Assembly: GCF_001698225.1 (NCBI RefSeq)
Contig: NZ_CP016594.1
Coordinates: forward strand, 744,001-808,000
Direction of reading: 5' to 3'
DNA from: Gordonia terrae
GTDB lineage: Bacteria > Actinomycetota > Actinomycetes > Mycobacteriales > Mycobacteriaceae
Length of the DNA stretch: 64,000 nt
Part shown: in pieces, positions 28,771 through 58,466 of the stretch
How positions within the stretch are numbered: the stretch's first letter is position 1
How the letters are laid out: every line of letters starts with the position of its first letter
The notes under the pieces: generated by a model
Databases searched by the model: none
What the model was told of the DNA's origin: nothing
What the model saw: the letters and a program-made list of their open reading frames with translations, nothing else
Translations under genes and position numbers: made by a program

Positions 28771-28797
28771 CTTGCACTCGCAGTGGTCGAGTGCTAA
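28771..28797 (+). promoter_or_regulatory. CIRCE element 1 (HrcA operator) of groEL
   Basis: CTTGCACTC-N9-GAGTGCTAA matches the CIRCE consensus TTAGCACTC-N9-GAGTGCTAA, with a perfect right arm. It overlaps a plausible promoter, TTGCAC (28772-28777) and CTAAAA (28794-28799) with a 16-bp spacer, so HrcA would block RNA polymerase. Confidence 0.88.
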
Positions 28798-28805
28798 AAA
28801 CGAGG

Positions 28806-28832
28806 TTGGCACTCACGGACTGTGAGTGCCAG
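28806..28832 (+). promoter_or_regulatory. CIRCE element 2 (HrcA operator) of groEL
   Basis: TTGGCACTC-N9-GAGTGCCAG, 35 bp downstream of the first CIRCE copy, with 8/9 and 7/9 matches to the consensus arms. It would lie in the transcribed leader, about 110 bp before the groEL start. Confidence 0.82.
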
Positions 28833-45858: not shown

Positions 45859-46060
45859 CCACTTCGGTGGTGGTTGGGTTCTGAGCACCAGGCATCTGGC
45901 TCTCCCGCTGGTTACCGCCCTGGCTGTATCGGGCTGGTGTTGGCTCATTGTGCCGATGCCTGGTGTGTCAGGACCGGCCGGCGTGACTTGATAGGAGCGT
46001 GGCATCGCCCCCGACTGAGATGTGTCCGCCGACCGGCCCGACTGTCGCCACTCCCTCTGA
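45859..46060 (+). ncRNA. Putative bridge RNA region of the IS110 element
   Basis: The non-coding 5' part contains a UUCG-capped hairpin (CCAC-TTCG-GTGG, 45859-45870), a perfect 11-bp stem (CACCAGGCATC 45886-45896 with GATGCCTGGTG 45955-45965) enclosing a 58-nt loop, and a looser GGCCGGCG / CGCC-GA-CCGGCC stem (~45976-46045) enclosing a second loop. The second loop contains TTGATAGGAGC, matching the right end TTGACATAGGAGC in 8 consecutive bases. A 5' hairpin and two internal loops, one matching the donor end, is the bridge-RNA layout described for IS621. Exact transcript ends are unknown. Confidence 0.5.
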
Positions 46061-46076
46061 CAGGAAGGCATCTCCC

Positions 46077-47141
46077 ATGATCGTCATCGGTGCTGATGTG
46101 CACAAGCGCACGCACACCTTCGTCGCGGTCGACGCCGTCGGCAAACAACTCGGATCCACCGTGGTGCCGGCGATCACGGCCGGGCATCGCACAGCCATGC
46201 AGTGGGCGCATACACGCTTCGGTACCGAGGTGTTGTGGGCGATCGAGGACTGTCGCAACATGTCGGCCCGGCTCGAACGCGACCTGCTAGGCGCCGATCA
46301 GAAAGTGGTGCGGGTAGCGCCGCGTCTGATGGCCGAACACCGCCGTACCGGACGTGAACGCGGCAAGTCTGATCCGATCGATGCGTTGGCGGTGGCTCGG
46401 GCCGCAGCACGTGAACCCGGCCTTCCGGTGGCGTCTCACGACGCTTTGTCCTATGAGATGAAAGCTCTCGTCGATTACCGTGATTGCCTTGTGCGCGAAC
46501 GAACCTCGAAGATCAACCGGGTGTTGTGGCGGGTGCATCAACTCGACCCCGAGCACCACATCAAAAAGGGCGGGATGAAACTCAAGAAGCATCAGAAAGC
46601 GCTGCAAACCTGGTTGACGACCCAAGGCAGCGGTGTCGATGCCCGCCTGGTCGGCAAGGAAGTCGCCGCTATTCACGACCTGACTGTGGAGATCAATGAG
46701 GTCGAACGAGAGATCACCAAGAAGGTTTCCGACGCGGTGCCCACCCTGTTGGCGATGCCCGGTTGTGGCGCGCTCAGCGCCGCGAAACTCCTCGGCGAAT
46801 CCGCCGACATCACCCGATTCCCCGGGGAGGCCCAGTTCGCCCGCCACGCCGGAATCGCCCCCGTGCCGGTGTGGTCGGCCAACCCGGGGCGTCATCGACT
46901 CACGCGGTCGGGCAACCGCCAACTCAACGCCGCGATCCACCGCATCGCGCTGACCCAGGCACGCATGCCGGACACCCTCGGCCACGCCTACTACGAGAGA
47001 AAGCAGGCAGACGGCAAGACTCCTCGCGAGGCGATGCGCTGCCTCAAACGCCGCCTCGCCCGCGTCGTCTACAACCACCTCACCACCGACCACCAGGCCC
47101 GCACCCACAAAGCCGACAACCCGACAGCCGCCGCTGCTTGA
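46077..47141 (+). CDS. IS110-family transposase (DEDD recombinase)
   Basis: 354 residues. The N-terminal RuvC-like domain has MIVIGADVHKRTHTFVAVD, AIEDCRN and KSDPIDALAVARAA (the D, E, D, D positions); a coiled middle region follows; the C-terminal Transposase_20 domain has LAMPGCGALSAAKLLGE and HAGIAPVPVWSANPGRHRL with RSGNRQLN, where the serine nucleophile of the family is expected. ATG 46077 has AGGAAGG 8 nt upstream. The frame is intact, so the element may be active. Confidence 0.93.
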   Translation: MIVIGADVHKRTHTFVAVDAVGKQLGSTVVPAITAGHRTAMQWAHTRFGTEVLWAIEDCRNMSARLERDLLGADQKVVRVAPRLMAEHRRTGRERGKSDPIDALAVARAAAREPGLPVASHDALSYEMKALVDYRDCLVRERTSKINRVLWRVHQLDPEHHIKKGGMKLKKHQKALQTWLTTQGSGVDARLVGKEVAAIHDLTVEINEVEREITKKVSDAVPTLLAMPGCGALSAAKLLGESADITRFPGEAQFARHAGIAPVPVWSANPGRHRLTRSGNRQLNAAIHRIALTQARMPDTLGHAYYERKQADGKTPREAMRCLKRRLARVVYNHLTTDHQARTHKADNPTAAAA

Positions 47142-49363: not shown

Positions 49364-50607
49364 ATGCCCTCGACCACCGAACTCCGCGACACCCTCACCG
49401 TGCTGCAACCACCGCCCGACGACGGAAGTGGCCGTGCTCTGCACGAGCGGCTCGACGAGCTGCGGATGTTGCGCAACGTGCTGGATCACCAGATCGCCGT
49501 ACATACAGCACTTTTCGACGTCACGGGTGCGGCAGCGCGGGCGGGGTCGACCACTCGGAACGCACTGATCGAGATGGGCATGCCGCCCGCTGTCGCGTAC
49601 CGTTATGTGCGGATCGCCAGCGGGCTGGGGTCGGTGCCGAAGGTTGCCGATTGTGCTGCCGAGGGTTATCTGTCTGCCGAGTGTGTCGACGCGGTGATCC
49701 GTGGACTGGCGCTCATCGACAAACGTTCTGCCACAGCGCTGTCCGACGACGAGCGCAGCGGATATGAGAGCGAGTTGCTTGCGCAGGCATTCTCCGGCGC
49801 CACCCCGACCGAGATCGACGACCACGCCCGCGGGATCGCCATTCGGGTCGCCGCCACCGACCCCGCCGCCGTGCCGGCGGCCGATGACGCGTCGCTGAAC
49901 ACCGTGCACACCCGCGTCACCGACGACGGCCGTGTCGCGATTACGGGAGATGTGACCGCGGTGATCGGGGAGAAGTTCGTGGCGATGATCGACGAACGGT
50001 CCTGTCCACGTCCCGAACCCGACGGCGCGACGGATCGTCGCGGTGCGGCCGAGCGGCGGGCCGATGCGCTGGAGTTGCTGTTGGATCAAGCCGCGATCGG
50101 CGCGGCGATGACCACCGCCGGCGCACCCCGCACCCAACTCCTGGTGACCACCCCGCCGACGGCGCTGACCCGGCACGCCTGCCGTGGGTCGGCGCGGTGT
50201 CGGCATCGTCGGCGCGCCGGCTGTCGTGTGATGGCGGGGTGGCCGAGATCGTCCTCGACGACGAGGGGGTGCCGTTGCGGATGGGCACCACGAAACGACT
50301 GTTCCCCCACCATCTGCGGCAGGCGATCATCGTCCGCGATCGGTGTTGTGTGAAATGCGGTGCGCCAGCACCGCATACGCAAGTTCACCATCTGGTCCAC
50401 TGGGCTGATGGTGGTCCCACAGATCTGGACAACGGGTGCCTGCTTTGTCAACGCTGTCACACCCAGGTCCATCACCACGGCTGGCAGGTCGTGATGAGAC
50501 CCGACCGGCACCCATGGCTCATCCCACCCGCCGACATCGACCCGCGGCGCCTGCCCCGACCCGCCTACAACCGGCGCACCATGCGACTCGACGACGCCCT
50601 CGTCTAG
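49364..50607 (+). pseudogene. DUF222-HNH (13E12 family) gene with a frameshift
   Basis: Frame 1 encodes the DUF222 domain from ATG 49364 (MPSTTELRDTLTVLQPPPDD) to about position 50162 (TQLLVTTPPT). The continuation lies in another frame: ADPARLPWVGAVSASSARRL, then EIVLDDEGVPL and an HNH nuclease motif (CCVKCGAPAPHTQVHHLVHW, CLLCQRCHTQVHHHGW) to 50607. A one-base loss or two-base gain near 50162 explains the break. It may be a real mutation or a sequencing error. With the other DUF222 gene split by an IS, neither copy in the window is intact. Confidence 0.82.
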
Positions 50608-53160: not shown

Positions 53161-53895
53161 CTACTTGCGTGCGCCGCGCCAGTTCATGCCCCAGCCGTAC
53201 GCCTCGTCGACCTTGTCCTGCGCCCCACGGATGTAGCGCACCTCGCGGTTGAGGACCAGTTCGCCGCCGCGGTTCTCGAACAGTGCGATCGCACAGGAGA
53301 GTGCCGACTGATCCGCCTCGTCGAGCCGGACCTCGATCTCCGGGCCGTTGGCCGGGAACAGGGTGACGACGCCGTTGGCGCCGGCCCAGTTGGGTGTGCC
53401 CTCGTAGATGTAGGCGAAGATCAGGATTCGCCGGATCCGGTTGGTCGCGGCGAGGTCGATGTACATGTTCTCGCCGCCGGAGCCCGATCGATCGTCGCCG
53501 TCGAGATAGATGATCGGCTGTCCGTCACGAGGAGCACGGAACGAGTTGCCCAGGGCCTGGACGATGCCCTTGCTGCCGTCGGTGAACTCCCAGAGGCAGG
53601 CCAGGTCCAGGTCGATGCCCTGCGCCTTGCGAAAGAGTCCGCCGCCCTTCGAATTCGAGGTCCAGCTCAGGTTGACGCGCACCTGGCCGGTGGTCGCACC
53701 CTGCTTGCTCAGCGAGATGCTCGGCGCGGACTTGGTGAGGGTGATCTTCGACAGCGAGACCGGCTGGGCGGGCGGCTGCTGGCCGTAACCCGCCGGGGCG
53801 GGGGGCTGCTGGCCGTAACCGGCGGGCGCGGAGGGGGGCTGGGCAGGCGGCTGCGGCGGCTGCGCCTTCGGACGCTTGGTGTAATCGATCCCCAT
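53161..53895 (-). CDS. TerD-family protein with a Pro/Gln-rich N-terminus
   Basis: 244 residues. The N-terminal ~48 residues are a low-complexity arm with a duplicated GYGQQPPA unit. The TerD domain (~50-240) shows VSLSKITLTKSAPSISLSKQ, LDLACLWEFTDG, the acidic, possibly Ca2+-binding YLDGDDRSGSGGENMYIDL, FAYIYEG and the GWGMNWRGARK end. TerD proteins belong to tellurite/stress-response systems thought to act at the membrane. The gene is downstream of and on the same strand as the Hsp70 and FnIII-protein genes, with a 101-bp gap. Confidence 0.82.
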   Translation of the reverse strand: MGIDYTKRPKAQPPQPPAQPPSAPAGYGQQPPAPAGYGQQPPAQPVSLSKITLTKSAPSISLSKQGATTGQVRVNLSWTSNSKGGGLFRKAQGIDLDLACLWEFTDGSKGIVQALGNSFRAPRDGQPIIYLDGDDRSGSGGENMYIDLAATNRIRRILIFAYIYEGTPNWAGANGVVTLFPANGPEIEVRLDEADQSALSCAIALFENRGGELVLNREVRYIRGAQDKVDEAYGWGMNWRGARK

Positions 53896-53996
53896 CTCGG
53901 TTCCTCATCTCGTCGTCGGTGACATCGTCTGGTCCAGTCATCGCACGGCGAAAGACACTCGCCGCAGGTGTTGGGGCCCAGCGTAGTGGACCACCG

Positions 53997-56174
53997 TCAC
54001 CGGGCGGCGCCCGTTGCCGGCGCCTGAGCCCGCGCGGACGGACCGAACACCGACGCGACGTCGAGCTTTCCCTGCGGGTTTCGGCGGCAGCTGGCCACCG
54101 CGACATGGCACGGACGTGGGACGTTCGGCGGGATCGGGTAACCGTCGTCGATCTGATAGCGGGTGTTGGTGACCTTCGACGCGACCGCCGCCGGGTCCGC
54201 GGGATGATCCGGAGCGGCATCCGGGCGAATGACGACCATCGCCTCGGTGACACCGGCCGGCCAGTCGAAGCGCACGGTGTCGCCCTCGACACGGACCGCG
54301 GTGATCGGTGGCGGATCGTCGGGCCGAGGTGTGGCCGGGTGCACCGGCGCCGCGCTCGCCGAATCGGCGGACGGGGCGGACGTGGAGTCGGTGCGGGCCG
54401 GCTCGGACCGGTGCCCGGCGTGGAGTGCGGTGACCTCGTAGACCGGTGCGACCGGGTCGGGTGCGCTGCCGTCGGACAGTTCGGTCGCCGTGGTGCGGCC
54501 GAGCGTCCGGGTCGACCCGTCGAATCCGATGCGCACCACGCGGTAGGTCACCGACTCCGTCGCGGAGGGATCCCACGAGACGGTGATCGCGCCACCCTCG
54601 GCGACGGACCGGACGTTTCGCGGCGGGTCCACGGTGACATCGGCGGCCGACCTGTTGAGCGCTCCGTGATCCACGATCTGACGCCGCATCTCGGCCGCGG
54701 CGGACAGGCTCGCCGGGTCTCCCGTCGACGCCGCCCGCACGGTCTCGTCGGCCCGGGCGACGACGTCGCGCGACTGCTCGAGCCGCTCGTCGAGACGACC
54801 GCCCGCGTCGGGGAGCAGGTCGATGTCCCGGGCCCGCCGAAGTATGTCCTCCAGCAGTTCGACTGCCGCGACATGCCGCTTCTCCTCGGCCAGGTCTCGC
54901 GCCCGGCGCGCATCCGTCACCGCCTGGCCGATGACCCGCTCGACCTCGTCGGCGACCGCGGCGATCTGCCGGAGCGCCTCGCCGTCGTCGCCGGCCGAGG
55001 CGCGCGCGTCCGCGACCAACGCACGCGCGCGGACCGGCAGACCGTCCCGCAGGGCGGCGCGGGCGGTGCGGAGATCGTTCTCCCACAGTCTCTTCGGCGG
55101 GACCTCGACAGGCTCGGCCGGCAGAGGTGGGCTGGCCGGCAGAGGTGGGCTGGCTGGCAGAGGGGGGCTGGCCGGCAGAGGGGGGTCACCCGGCGAAGTC
55201 GCGCCGAATTCGAGGGCGAGTTCGGTGATCACGGTGCGCGCGTCCCGCGAGCCCAGCCCGCGGGCTCGGGCCTCGTCGAGCAGGTACTCGTGGTCCTGCG
55301 CGCCGAGTTCGTCCTCGACCAGGACCGCAGCCCGGACCCGCGGCCGTAGGTGGTCGGTCACCGTGTCGATGACCGACTGCCGATACTCCTGCGCCAGTGC
55401 GGGATCGGCGAGCAGGACGTCGTGCACGTGGACGAGCAGTTCGTCGAGGACGCCGCGGAATCGGCCGGGGGCGAGCTCGCGGGCGCGTTCGCCCAGCGCG
55501 ACCGCCCGCGACTCGATGACACCGCGGTCGGCGGCGGCGTCGGTGTCGAGGTGCAACAGGGTCAGCAGGGTCGGGGTGGGGTCGCCGTCGCGGAGTCGGT
55601 CGAATTCGGCGAGCAGGTCGCCGATCTGGGCACGTCGCTGCGCGGTCAAGGTCACCCGCGGCGGCGTCGGGGCGGCGGGCGCGGGCGGTGCATCGTCGAC
55701 GATGCGGTGACGCCGCATCCGGGTGGCGATCTCCGCCGGATCGAGCCCGCCCATCGCGCCGATCTCGTCGAGTCCGGCGCGCTTGGATCTCGGGATCCCG
55801 CCGTACCGCTCGTTGAGTCGCGCGATCGCGTTGTCGAGGAGTTCGAACCGCTGCTGATCGCGGAATTCGCGTCGGGTGCTCACCGCCCGTGCCTCGGCGA
55901 TCCGACCGGTCTTGTGCCGCAACGGCGCCGACCGTTCGTCGTGTTCGGCCACGAGTCGCGCCACCAGGATGCGGTACTTCGGGTGGTCGCGTTGCTTCTG
56001 CCAGAACGCCCACACCTCGTCGAGTCGAACGGCGACGGCGTCGTCGTCGAGGCGCTCGGCCTCGCCGATCGGGATGTCGTACAGTTCGAACGAATCGGAT
56101 TCGCCGGGCCCCCCGCGTTTCTCGACCGCGGCGAGCACGCGCTTGCGATAGTCGTTGCCGACGAACGGCTCCAT
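53997..56174 (-). CDS. 725-residue coiled-coil/FnIII protein of the Hsp70 island
   Basis: No known full-length family is recognised. In order: an N-terminal helical domain (1-160; FVGNDYRKRVLAAVEKRGG, VWAFWQKQRDHPKYRILVAR), where a helix-HPK-helix layout faintly recalls a J domain without HPD; charged helices (~170-360); a Pro-rich linker made of four PPLPAS units; a long coiled coil (~400-530); then two FnIII-like modules (~540-610 ITVSWDPSATESVTYRVVR and ~640-715 VRFDWPAGVTEAMVVIRPDA). No signal peptide. The gene starts 28 bp after the Hsp70 stop. Role as an Hsp70 client adaptor or co-chaperone is inferred. Confidence 0.75.
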   Translation of the reverse strand: MEPFVGNDYRKRVLAAVEKRGGPGESDSFELYDIPIGEAERLDDDAVAVRLDEVWAFWQKQRDHPKYRILVARLVAEHDERSAPLRHKTGRIAEARAVSTRREFRDQQRFELLDNAIARLNERYGGIPRSKRAGLDEIGAMGGLDPAEIATRMRRHRIVDDAPPAPAAPTPPRVTLTAQRRAQIGDLLAEFDRLRDGDPTPTLLTLLHLDTDAAADRGVIESRAVALGERARELAPGRFRGVLDELLVHVHDVLLADPALAQEYRQSVIDTVTDHLRPRVRAAVLVEDELGAQDHEYLLDEARARGLGSRDARTVITELALEFGATSPGDPPLPASPPLPASPPLPASPPLPAEPVEVPPKRLWENDLRTARAALRDGLPVRARALVADARASAGDDGEALRQIAAVADEVERVIGQAVTDARRARDLAEEKRHVAAVELLEDILRRARDIDLLPDAGGRLDERLEQSRDVVARADETVRAASTGDPASLSAAAEMRRQIVDHGALNRSAADVTVDPPRNVRSVAEGGAITVSWDPSATESVTYRVVRIGFDGSTRTLGRTTATELSDGSAPDPVAPVYEVTALHAGHRSEPARTDSTSAPSADSASAAPVHPATPRPDDPPPITAVRVEGDTVRFDWPAGVTEAMVVIRPDAAPDHPADPAAVASKVTNTRYQIDDGYPIPPNVPRPCHVAVASCRRNPQGKLDVASVFGPSARAQAPATGAAR
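55116..55187. repeat. Four 18-bp tandem repeats coding PPLPAS units
   Basis: Units GGCCGGCAGAGGTGGGCT (55116-55133, 55134-55151) and two variants (55152-55169, 55170-55187) encode the Pro-rich linker of the coiled-coil/FnIII protein. The high identity between units suggests recent expansion and likely length variation between strains. Confidence 0.85.
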
Positions 56175-56202
56175 CAGATCCCCTGCCTCACCCCGAGATC
56201 GG

Positions 56203-57879
<1,677 letters not shown>

Positions 57880-57956
57880 GATCGGGGATGCTAGCAGCGC
57901 AGACGGTCTCGCCGGTGTCGGTCGAGGAGCGGGCGGGTGTTGATTACGCTGGCGGA

Positions 57957-58466
57957 ATGACGTCTCCGGAGGGCGCAGCACCCGACCGAACCGCTGGGCT
58001 CGAGCAGTTGCGGGAGCAGGTGTCCGACCTCGCACTTGTGGTGGCACGGCAGACCAGGACGATCGAACGGCTCGTCGACGCGGCCAAGCGGCCGGGTGGG
58101 TCCGCGACGGCCGACGTTGCGCTGCTGGTCGACCTGTTCGCGCTCCACACCGATGCGGCGACGTGTGTGGTCTCCGCATCGGAGGCCGACCGGCCCGCAT
58201 TCGAGTTGTTGCGCGCCGGACTGGAACGGCTCATCGTCGGCCGTGGCGGTGCCGTCGTCGCCCCGCCGCCCGGTGCCGACTTCGATGCCCGCACCATGGA
58301 AGCGGTCGATGTCCGAGCGGCGACCGACACCTTGGCGGACCGCACGGTCGCCGAGCTCCTGCGTCCGGGGCTCGTCGTCGGGGAGCGGTCGGTCCGTCCC
58401 GCAGCTGTGGTGGTCTTCCGGAGCGGTCAGTCCTCGGGAGACAGTGTCCGCCAGAGGAATTCGTAG
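57957..58466 (+). CDS. GrpE-like nucleotide exchange factor
   Basis: 169 residues. An N-terminal coiled coil (GLEQLREQVSDLALVVARQT) leads to a C-terminal beta domain with the GrpE pattern: G-x3-P-x4-FD-x3-MEAV (GADFDARTMEAVDV), then TVAELLRPGLVVGERSVRPA and AVVV. The match to GrpE beta-wing spacing is good although overall identity must be low. It is divergent from the Hsp70 gene, 77 bp apart, with TACGCT 6 nt before its ATG. Its last codons overlap the convergent oligopeptidase gene by 40 bp. Confidence 0.75.
   Translation: MTSPEGAAPDRTAGLEQLREQVSDLALVVARQTRTIERLVDAAKRPGGSATADVALLVDLFALHTDAATCVVSASEADRPAFELLRAGLERLIVGRGGAVVAPPPGADFDARTMEAVDVRAATDTLADRTVAELLRPGLVVGERSVRPAAVVVFRSGQSSGDSVRQRNS

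Follow-up and report, generated by a model that had tools for sequence, protein, structure and literature searches.

The window analysed here, a stretch of 64,000 nucleotides (C1:744001-808000 of the 5.70-Mb single-contig genome of a Gordonia, a soil actinobacterium), carries a cassette in which a lidless Hsp70 is encoded next upstream of a 725-residue protein with a predicted J-domain-like N-terminus and predicted C-terminal fibronectin type III (FnIII) domains, in the company of genes for a GrpE-like protein and a variant of TerD. Judged from the sequences, the key contact between a J-domain and its Hsp70 is altered on both partners, with HPK or HPR in place of the HPD tripeptide and no arginine at the position of DnaK Arg167. 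The reading that we favour, and to which we give an even chance, is that of a dedicated Hsp70 machine serving the Ter (TerC/TerD) stress system and insulated from DnaK and DnaJ. A first-pass annotation of this DNA had described the four genes as an Hsp70 with a truncated lid, a GrpE-like factor, a 725-residue protein and a TerD-type protein. The existence of these four genes at this place is confirmed by their open reading frames (ORFs), by alignment of the Hsp70 with DnaK and by Pfam matches to HSP70 (E 9.2e-93), GrpE (E 3.3e-7) and TerD (E 1.4e-4, under the cut-off of that model). The cassette also lies, as had been noted, away from the standard chaperone genes of the same genome, with dnaK at C1:5011629-5013353 and dnaJ at C1:5010443.

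To assess the conservation of this arrangement, we gathered loci by the large protein from a scan of genome contigs, so that the count of Hsp70 genes is independent of the discovery route. Twelve genome stretches and 77 named loci, less L040, which holds only a remnant, gave 88 loci with the N-terminal region, and setting aside four duplicates with identical N-terminal sequence left 84 distinct loci. The 77 loci of the contig scan come from Nocardia, Gordonia, Tsukamurella, Pseudonocardia, Nocardioides, Frankia and its relatives, Virgisporangium, Millisia, Geodermatophilus and a few metagenome-assembled genomes. In all 84 distinct loci, the gene immediately upstream of that for the large protein encodes an Hsp70 and shares its strand; these include L116, where the Hsp70 gene is in two pieces, and L087, where it is cut by the contig end. 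The median gap between the two genes is 9 bp over the 88 loci. The adjacency of the two genes is not due to chance.

The ATPase domain of the cassette Hsp70 aligns with DnaK throughout, DnaK chains being matched down to an E-value of 1.7e-71, and the same alignments retain the beta substrate-binding domain. The alpha lid is absent, since in three DnaK alignments the match stops at residues 551-553 of the 558 of the cassette protein, corresponding to DnaK positions 491, 526 and 494 of chains 509, 546 and 625 residues long. In the linker region an insertion takes the place of the VLLLD motif, and no DnaK linker was recognisable among the 25 aligned strings compared. Among the NCBIfam models, those for DnaK were matched below their own cut-offs and those for GrpE weakly. 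We took the arginine of the R-I-[IV]-N-E-P motif to be DnaK R167. At the aligned position, the 82 cassette Hsp70s that retain this residue (L087 and L116 lack it) present Gly in 45 cases, Asp in 36 and Ala in one, with no instance of Arg. The DnaK-type proteins of cassette genomes keep the arginine in 11 of 11 cases, drawn from nine genomes and including two second copies; the additional Hsp70-like genes L003, L186, L187 and L188, in which position 167 is unreadable by the motif filter, and the unclassified L005 and L006 stand outside this count. A FastTree phylogeny built on residues 1-420 unites all 86 cassette Hsp70s (duplicates included) in a single clade with support 0.985, which is joined next by the Hsp70 of L191 (0.99), and seven DnaKs fall apart from this group. 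The L191 protein and another Hsp70 of the same genome (G040), L184, also lack Arg167. In G040, a weakly GrpE-like ORF (18.8 bits) and an Hsp70 gene are found at L209:8597-10866, with no FnIII-sized ORF directly after them; on the tree, the Hsp70 encoded there is placed as sister of the cassette clade (0.99), and it presents Asp at the Arg167 position.

The first-pass annotation had proposed the N-terminal region of the large protein as a possible substitute for a J protein, and the structural comparison points the same way. Foldseek with the N-terminal model yielded no significant match; in a structural second look (VIA, which is not a search), the top ten rows were all J-domains or J-domain fusions, and the fold is predicted to be J-domain-like. 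The tripeptide at the place of HPD reads HP[KR] in 83 of the 84 distinct loci and QPK in the remaining one, and HPD is found in none. A J-domain profile comparison based on a clean 20-row profile returned no match for this first helical unit. A second unit scored 25.8 against J-domains in hhalign, with a probability of 30.8%, the best of 60 column shuffles reaching 16.4. The profiles of the two units do not match each other, and an internal repeat is therefore not established. In the linker that follows the helical units, a short tandem repeat (55116-55184) encodes PPLPAS units. The C-terminal model matched tandem FnIII domains by Foldseek (best E 5.1e-6), in agreement with the FnIII assignment made from the letters, and two such domains are predicted.

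For the large protein, no Pfam match was obtained at E<=0.5, in a library searched without model PF25835, and neither the protein nor one long relative matched PDB sequences significantly. Its initial description as a protein of unknown family did not hold, as relatives carry names such as 'Ig-like domain repeat protein' and 'SaeA fourth Fn3-like domain'; among the matches listed, the literature on the word 'SaeA' concerns unrelated subjects. The closest relative, 98% identical, is labelled Gordonia terrae, as is a second at 69% identity.

Tallied by locus, the residues on the two sides of the contact combine as HPK-Gly in 45, HPK-Asp in 21, HPR-Asp in 15 and QPK-Ala in one, the Hsp70 residue being missing in two; these counts are a tally and are not claimed as independent covariation. 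The HPR-Asp loci are 14 of the Frankia group plus L039, more than one lineage therefore having this pairing, and HPK-Asp is found mainly in Pseudonocardia, Nocardioides and Virgisporangium. The HP(K/R)-(Gly/Asp) combination is kept across several actinobacterial genera and families. The Asp-Arg contact is regarded as critical for the trigger of ATP hydrolysis. The passages of PMC8215388 and PMC13012618 that deal with it state that J-domain D35 contacts DnaK R167 and is important for triggering hydrolysis, and in one of the two R167A is rescued by D35N, which makes a paired change at the J-Hsp70 contact a known route to a working pair. An actinobacterial family in which both contact residues are replaced is a natural test of the trigger and of how cross-talk between Hsp70s is avoided.

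The GrpE-like protein of the window scores 30.6 bits with the Pfam GrpE model (cut-off 25.8) over a limited part of its length, and matches a solved GrpE weakly (E 0.0057). A gene of this kind is found nearby in 62 of the 84 distinct loci, divergent from the Hsp70 gene in 61 and co-directional in L039, whose product has no Pfam match at E<=0.01 and was recognised with 42 bits by a GrpE-like profile built without it. The 22 loci in which it was not found belong mostly to Frankia, Parafrankia, Pseudofrankia, Virgisporangium and Geodermatophilus; truncation accounts for one of these absences.

The TerD variant falls below the Pfam TerD cut-off (21.9 against 25.3 bits) and has no significant match among PDB sequences, but can still be aligned to canonical TerD. 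Its TerD-like domain, with conserved DLDL...GDDRSG...GE residues, is preceded by an N-terminus rich in Pro, Gln and Tyr, possibly a condensate or binding tail. These low-complexity N-termini differ greatly between homologs, from about 45 residues in the window (53761-53895) to about 120 at L039:5694-6056. The variant lies inside the fetched stretch in 24 of the 84 distinct loci, within 4 kb in 14 of them. Co-occurrence of the genes first described together therefore varies: the Hsp70 accompanies the large protein throughout, and the counts for GrpE and for the TerD variant show that the four do not form an obligate set. For L035, the variant is outside the stretch; the same genome (G020) carries it some 200 kb further on or back, as part of a Ter cluster.

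Association of the cassette with Ter genes is nevertheless clear, both by linkage and by co-occurrence. Anantharaman and colleagues reportedly described, in 2012, Ter stress-response systems with TerC/TerD, StiP and PRTase. TerC, C-C lyase, PRTase, StiP and a TerD are all found near the cassette in 12 of the 84 distinct loci. In L039 the genes run in one direction, in the order terD, DUF475/TerC, TerD variant (without a Pfam match at E<=0.01, and assigned through 62% identity to the TerD of the window), GrpE-like, hsp70, FnIII gene (where a double zinc ribbon scores just under its cut-off), C-C lyase, PRTase_2/TRSP and StiP/PELOTA. The genome of the window has its own Ter cluster (terD, terC, C-C lyase, PRTase, stiP) near C1:5.52 Mb. 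Among 397 genomes sampled from the order, the large protein is present in 15, a possible undercount because five first-look candidates were scored per genome. The TerD variant was found in 77 of the 397, including all 15 with the large protein (Fisher P = 6e-12), and DUF475/TerC in 108 (95 over cut-off), again including all 15 (P = 1.6e-9). At genus level the counts are 8 of 8 for both (P = 1.6e-4 for the TerD variant and 3.8e-4 for DUF475/TerC); none of these Fisher tests takes phylogeny into account. Within 37 Gordonia, the variant is present in 11 of 11 with the large protein against 12 of 26 without it (P = 0.0016). The TerD link drawn in the first-pass annotation is thereby upheld. Among the papers listed by the literature searches, which did not extend to subscription papers such as the 2012 Ter study, none was seen to describe the chaperone trio together with Ter genes.

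Comparison with related genomes showed that the chaperone genes behave as a unit. Of 61 relatives, 13 gave a match to the large protein when its full length served as query, G001 through a C-terminal remnant only, and 12 when the N-terminal profile was used. Five Gordonia (G018, G002, G014, G019 and G023) share the same neighbourhood, from a PPK2-like to an FMN-oxidoreductase-like gene (names given by eye), with terD adjoining the peptidase gene; tblastn at this syntenic site detected no match to grpE, hsp70 or fnIII. In blastn comparisons of the empty sites, similarity ends at 53928-53929 in four and at 53785 in L207, and restarts at 58427-58437. As the empty sites keep terD and the flanks, the unit of gain or loss comprises three genes, beside which terD stays in place, and the four genes do not make up a single obligate set. 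The short FnIII remnant at the same place in G001 indicates that the block was probably lost there.

The layout of the cassette is given in Table 1. The large-protein gene starts 28 bp after the Hsp70 stop codon, as had been read from the letters, and is followed by terD after 101 bp. With grpE divergent and terD 101 bp off, the locus consists of an hsp70-fnIII operon with two neighbours and is not a single four-gene operon. The grpE-like gene is placed tail to tail with an S9-type peptidase gene (named by eye), with an overlap of 40 bp.

Table 1. Features of the cassette, in window coordinates (the first letter of the window is position 1).
Feature	Position	Strand	Details and basis
TerD-variant gene	53161-53895	-	244 aa; ORF translation
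Presence/absence block grpE + hsp70 + fnIII	53930-58432	.	~4.5 kb; absent at five Gordonia syntenic sites
Large J-like/FnIII scaffold gene (putative function)	53997-56174	-	725 aa; ORF and homologues
Two FnIII-like beta-sandwich domains (predicted)	54009-54620	-	residues ~519-722; AlphaFold2 mean pLDDT (predicted local distance difference test) 86.7
Second helical unit	55458-55571	-	residues 202-239; weak DnaJ J-domain match (first half), A-P-G aligned to HPD
J-domain-like fold (predicted)	55863-56105	-	residues ~24-104; structural comparison
HPK tripeptide	55977-55985	-	residues 64-66, right after predicted helix 44-63; place of HPD in J-domains
Lidless Hsp70 gene	56203-57879	-	GTG start, 558 aa; Pfam HSP70
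Hsp70 Gly143 codon	57451-57453	-	aligned to DnaK Arg167 (J-domain Asp contact); DnaK alignments
Intergenic hsp70/grpE, common promoter region for the divergent pair	57880-57956	.	77 bp, from coordinates
GrpE-like gene	57957-58466	+	169 aa; Pfam GrpE match at residues 79-153

Scans with consensus sequences, allowing at most three mismatches, detected no HAIR (HspR) operator in the window and no CIRCE operator at the cassette. Elsewhere in the window, two CIRCE-like inverted repeats with two and three mismatches (28771-28832; none in 100 shuffles) probably mark a groE-type promoter. Two further genes, both in the range of 3-7 kb from the cassette, were named by eye: an ORF at 45999-47141, which we take to be an IS110-like transposase, and one at 49364-50607, presumably of DUF222/HNH type and apparently split across two overlapping frames.

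In the mechanism that we propose, the Hsp70 would be the motor and the 725-residue protein its private co-chaperone and scaffold, docking on the Hsp70 with its N-terminal J-like domain and binding the target with its C-terminal FnIII domains, and the GrpE-like protein would reset the nucleotide. Because the HPD-Arg167 contact is rewritten on both sides (HPK or HPR facing Gly or Asp), DnaJ should not drive the cassette Hsp70, nor should the J-like domain drive DnaK. An Hsp70 without a lid would have a loose and reversible hold on clients that are large or already folded. These, we infer, would most likely be assemblies of the TerD variant at the TerC membrane protein, and the outcome may be that TerD/TerC complexes are remodelled when the cell meets envelope, metal or oxidative stress. 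The chief doubt about this scheme is that a J-like domain lacking the Asp may not act as a co-chaperone at all. More tentatively, and with somewhat less than even confidence, we suggest that the two proteins constitute a naturally orthogonal Hsp70-J pair, in which HP(K/R)-(Gly/Asp) would replace HPD-Arg167 and the lidless Hsp70 would work only with its own FnIII scaffold, in the service of TerC/TerD. If so, Ter systems would have in this pair their chaperone arm, and J-domains a second way of triggering Hsp70. The cassette would also provide the Ter field, which has yet to settle what TerD and TerC do, with a defined partner that is driven by ATP and open to clear assays in vitro.

A different function is suggested by GAP1-N2 systems. 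In the main text of Kaur et al. 2020 (eLife, PMC7159879), a 'second theme' of these systems combines HSP70, GrpE and an FNIII protein, typically in fusion with a DnaJ domain or with tetratricopeptide repeats; that main text mentions neither TerC nor tellurium, and TerD once. Another Gordonia, G027, encodes in a row GrpE, Hsp70, an FnIII protein, a DO-GTPase, GAP1, a second DO-GTPase, a second Hsp70 and vWA, the FnIII match and one DO-GTPase match being below cut-off, and this row fits the second theme as the main text of PMC7159879 gives it. The cassette might accordingly be a conflict module for anti-phage defence or cell suicide, a GTPase-free relative of GAP1-N2/DO-GTPase systems in which Hsp70 and FnIII scaffold would form a sensing or effector assembly. 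A trio of the same kind within a complete GAP1-N2 operon speaks for this possibility, as do the GAP1-N2 Hsp70s themselves, which lack Arg167 (Gly in one, Glu in the other) and group with the cassette Hsp70s just outside L191 with support 0.94, and the patchy distribution of the cassette, with its presence/absence block and the G001 remnant. The Glu is that of the second Hsp70 of the GTPase system (L143:987-2525), and it indicates that loss of Arg167 extends beyond the present cassette.

On the other side, G027 also holds the present cassette, on a separate contig, and phmmer searches with two GAP1 proteins, two DO-GTPases, tubulin and vWA against ORFs of at least 60 aa at the 89 cassette loci returned nothing at E<=1e-3, the control loci giving matches. 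The presence of both forms in G027, together with this negative result, shows that the cassette is not a fragment of a GAP1-N2 system. Nor are GAP1-N2 genes favoured in cassette genomes: they occur in 43 of the 397 genomes, in 42 of the 382 without the cassette and in one of the 15 with it, which is the genome of the window itself, where the match is below cut-off and carries an internal stop. PADLOC had no match for the four proteins, and no toxin-like effector was seen in flanks that lacked a gene-by-gene annotation. In many loci of Nocardia and Frankia, the flanks have housekeeping-looking genes in common (named by eye), which suggests stable inheritance there. We therefore regard a conflict module as unlikely. 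The proposal of a dedicated stress or defence chaperone system, and with it the first-pass interpretation as a whole, is thus partly supported: the dedicated chaperone set stands, and PADLOC lends nothing to defence.

It appears less probable still that the cassette Hsp70 is an ordinary accessory paralogue using the cellular DnaJ and GrpE, with the large protein as a client-binding adaptor whose J-like fold is incidental. The continuous alignment of the ATPase domain with DnaK, the purely structural J-likeness of the first helical unit and the 22 loci in which no GrpE-like gene was found would be in line with such a paralogue, but the arginine that DnaJ contacts is missing in 82 of 82 proteins, most loci encode a GrpE-like protein of their own, the DnaK linker motif is unrecognisable and the top structural rows are uniformly J-domains. 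Slightly further down the scale, an Hsp70-like switch of actin type in place of a chaperone, in which the lidless Hsp70 would clamp or polymerise on the FnIII scaffold in an ATP-dependent manner and the neighbouring TerD would be independent of it, would suit the absent lid, the altered linker, the resemblance of FnIII and helical units to assembly modules and the persistence of terD where the block is absent, and is countered by the kept beta substrate-binding domain, the exchange factor kept at most loci and the association with TerD and TerC in 15 of 15 genomes.

Set against known systems, the dedicated Hsp70 machine that we favour shares with DnaK-DnaJ-GrpE an Hsp70 ATPase domain, a beta substrate domain, an exchange factor and a partner predicted to be J-like, and differs in lacking the lid, Arg167, a recognisable linker motif and HPD, and in having an FnIII scaffold in place of the body of DnaJ. 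Pam16, a J-like protein without HPD, has a J-type fold in which that motif is altered and pairs with an HPD-bearing J protein, whereas no HPD protein is found among the four cassette genes and the contact site of the cassette Hsp70 is itself changed. CoCoNuT Type IV restriction systems, in which the main text of PMC11090510 describes Hsp70-like domains and TerY-P, resemble the cassette in placing an Hsp70-like ATPase beside genes first named for tellurite resistance, but the four cassette genes include no McrB/McrC, TerY, kinase or phosphatase, and that main text does not mention GrpE or TerD. With Ter systems, the cassette shares the surrounding TerD, DUF475/TerC, C-C lyase, PRTase_2/TRSP and StiP/PELOTA genes at the 12 loci described above, the difference being the chaperone trio next to the cluster. 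In Gordonia loci with GAP1-N2 and tubulin GTPase genes (L136-L142, neighbourhoods of 18-20 kb, from eight fetched of ten GAP1-N2 places over cut-off), TerD-like genes are nearby in 7 of 7 and TerC (DUF475) in 3 of 7, so that Ter genes accompany both forms. The nearest described system is GAP1-N2, with which the cassette has in common the trio of Hsp70, GrpE and FNIII protein and Hsp70s without Arg167 that fall in one clade. It differs by having no DO-GTPase, GAP1 or vWA homologues at any of the 89 loci, by a grpE that is mostly divergent, and by a large protein without detectable sequence homology to the N-terminus of the G027 FNIII protein. The cassette is a GTPase-free trio of the HSP70-GrpE-FNIII kind, and its existence shows that this part of GAP1-N2 systems is able to stand alone.

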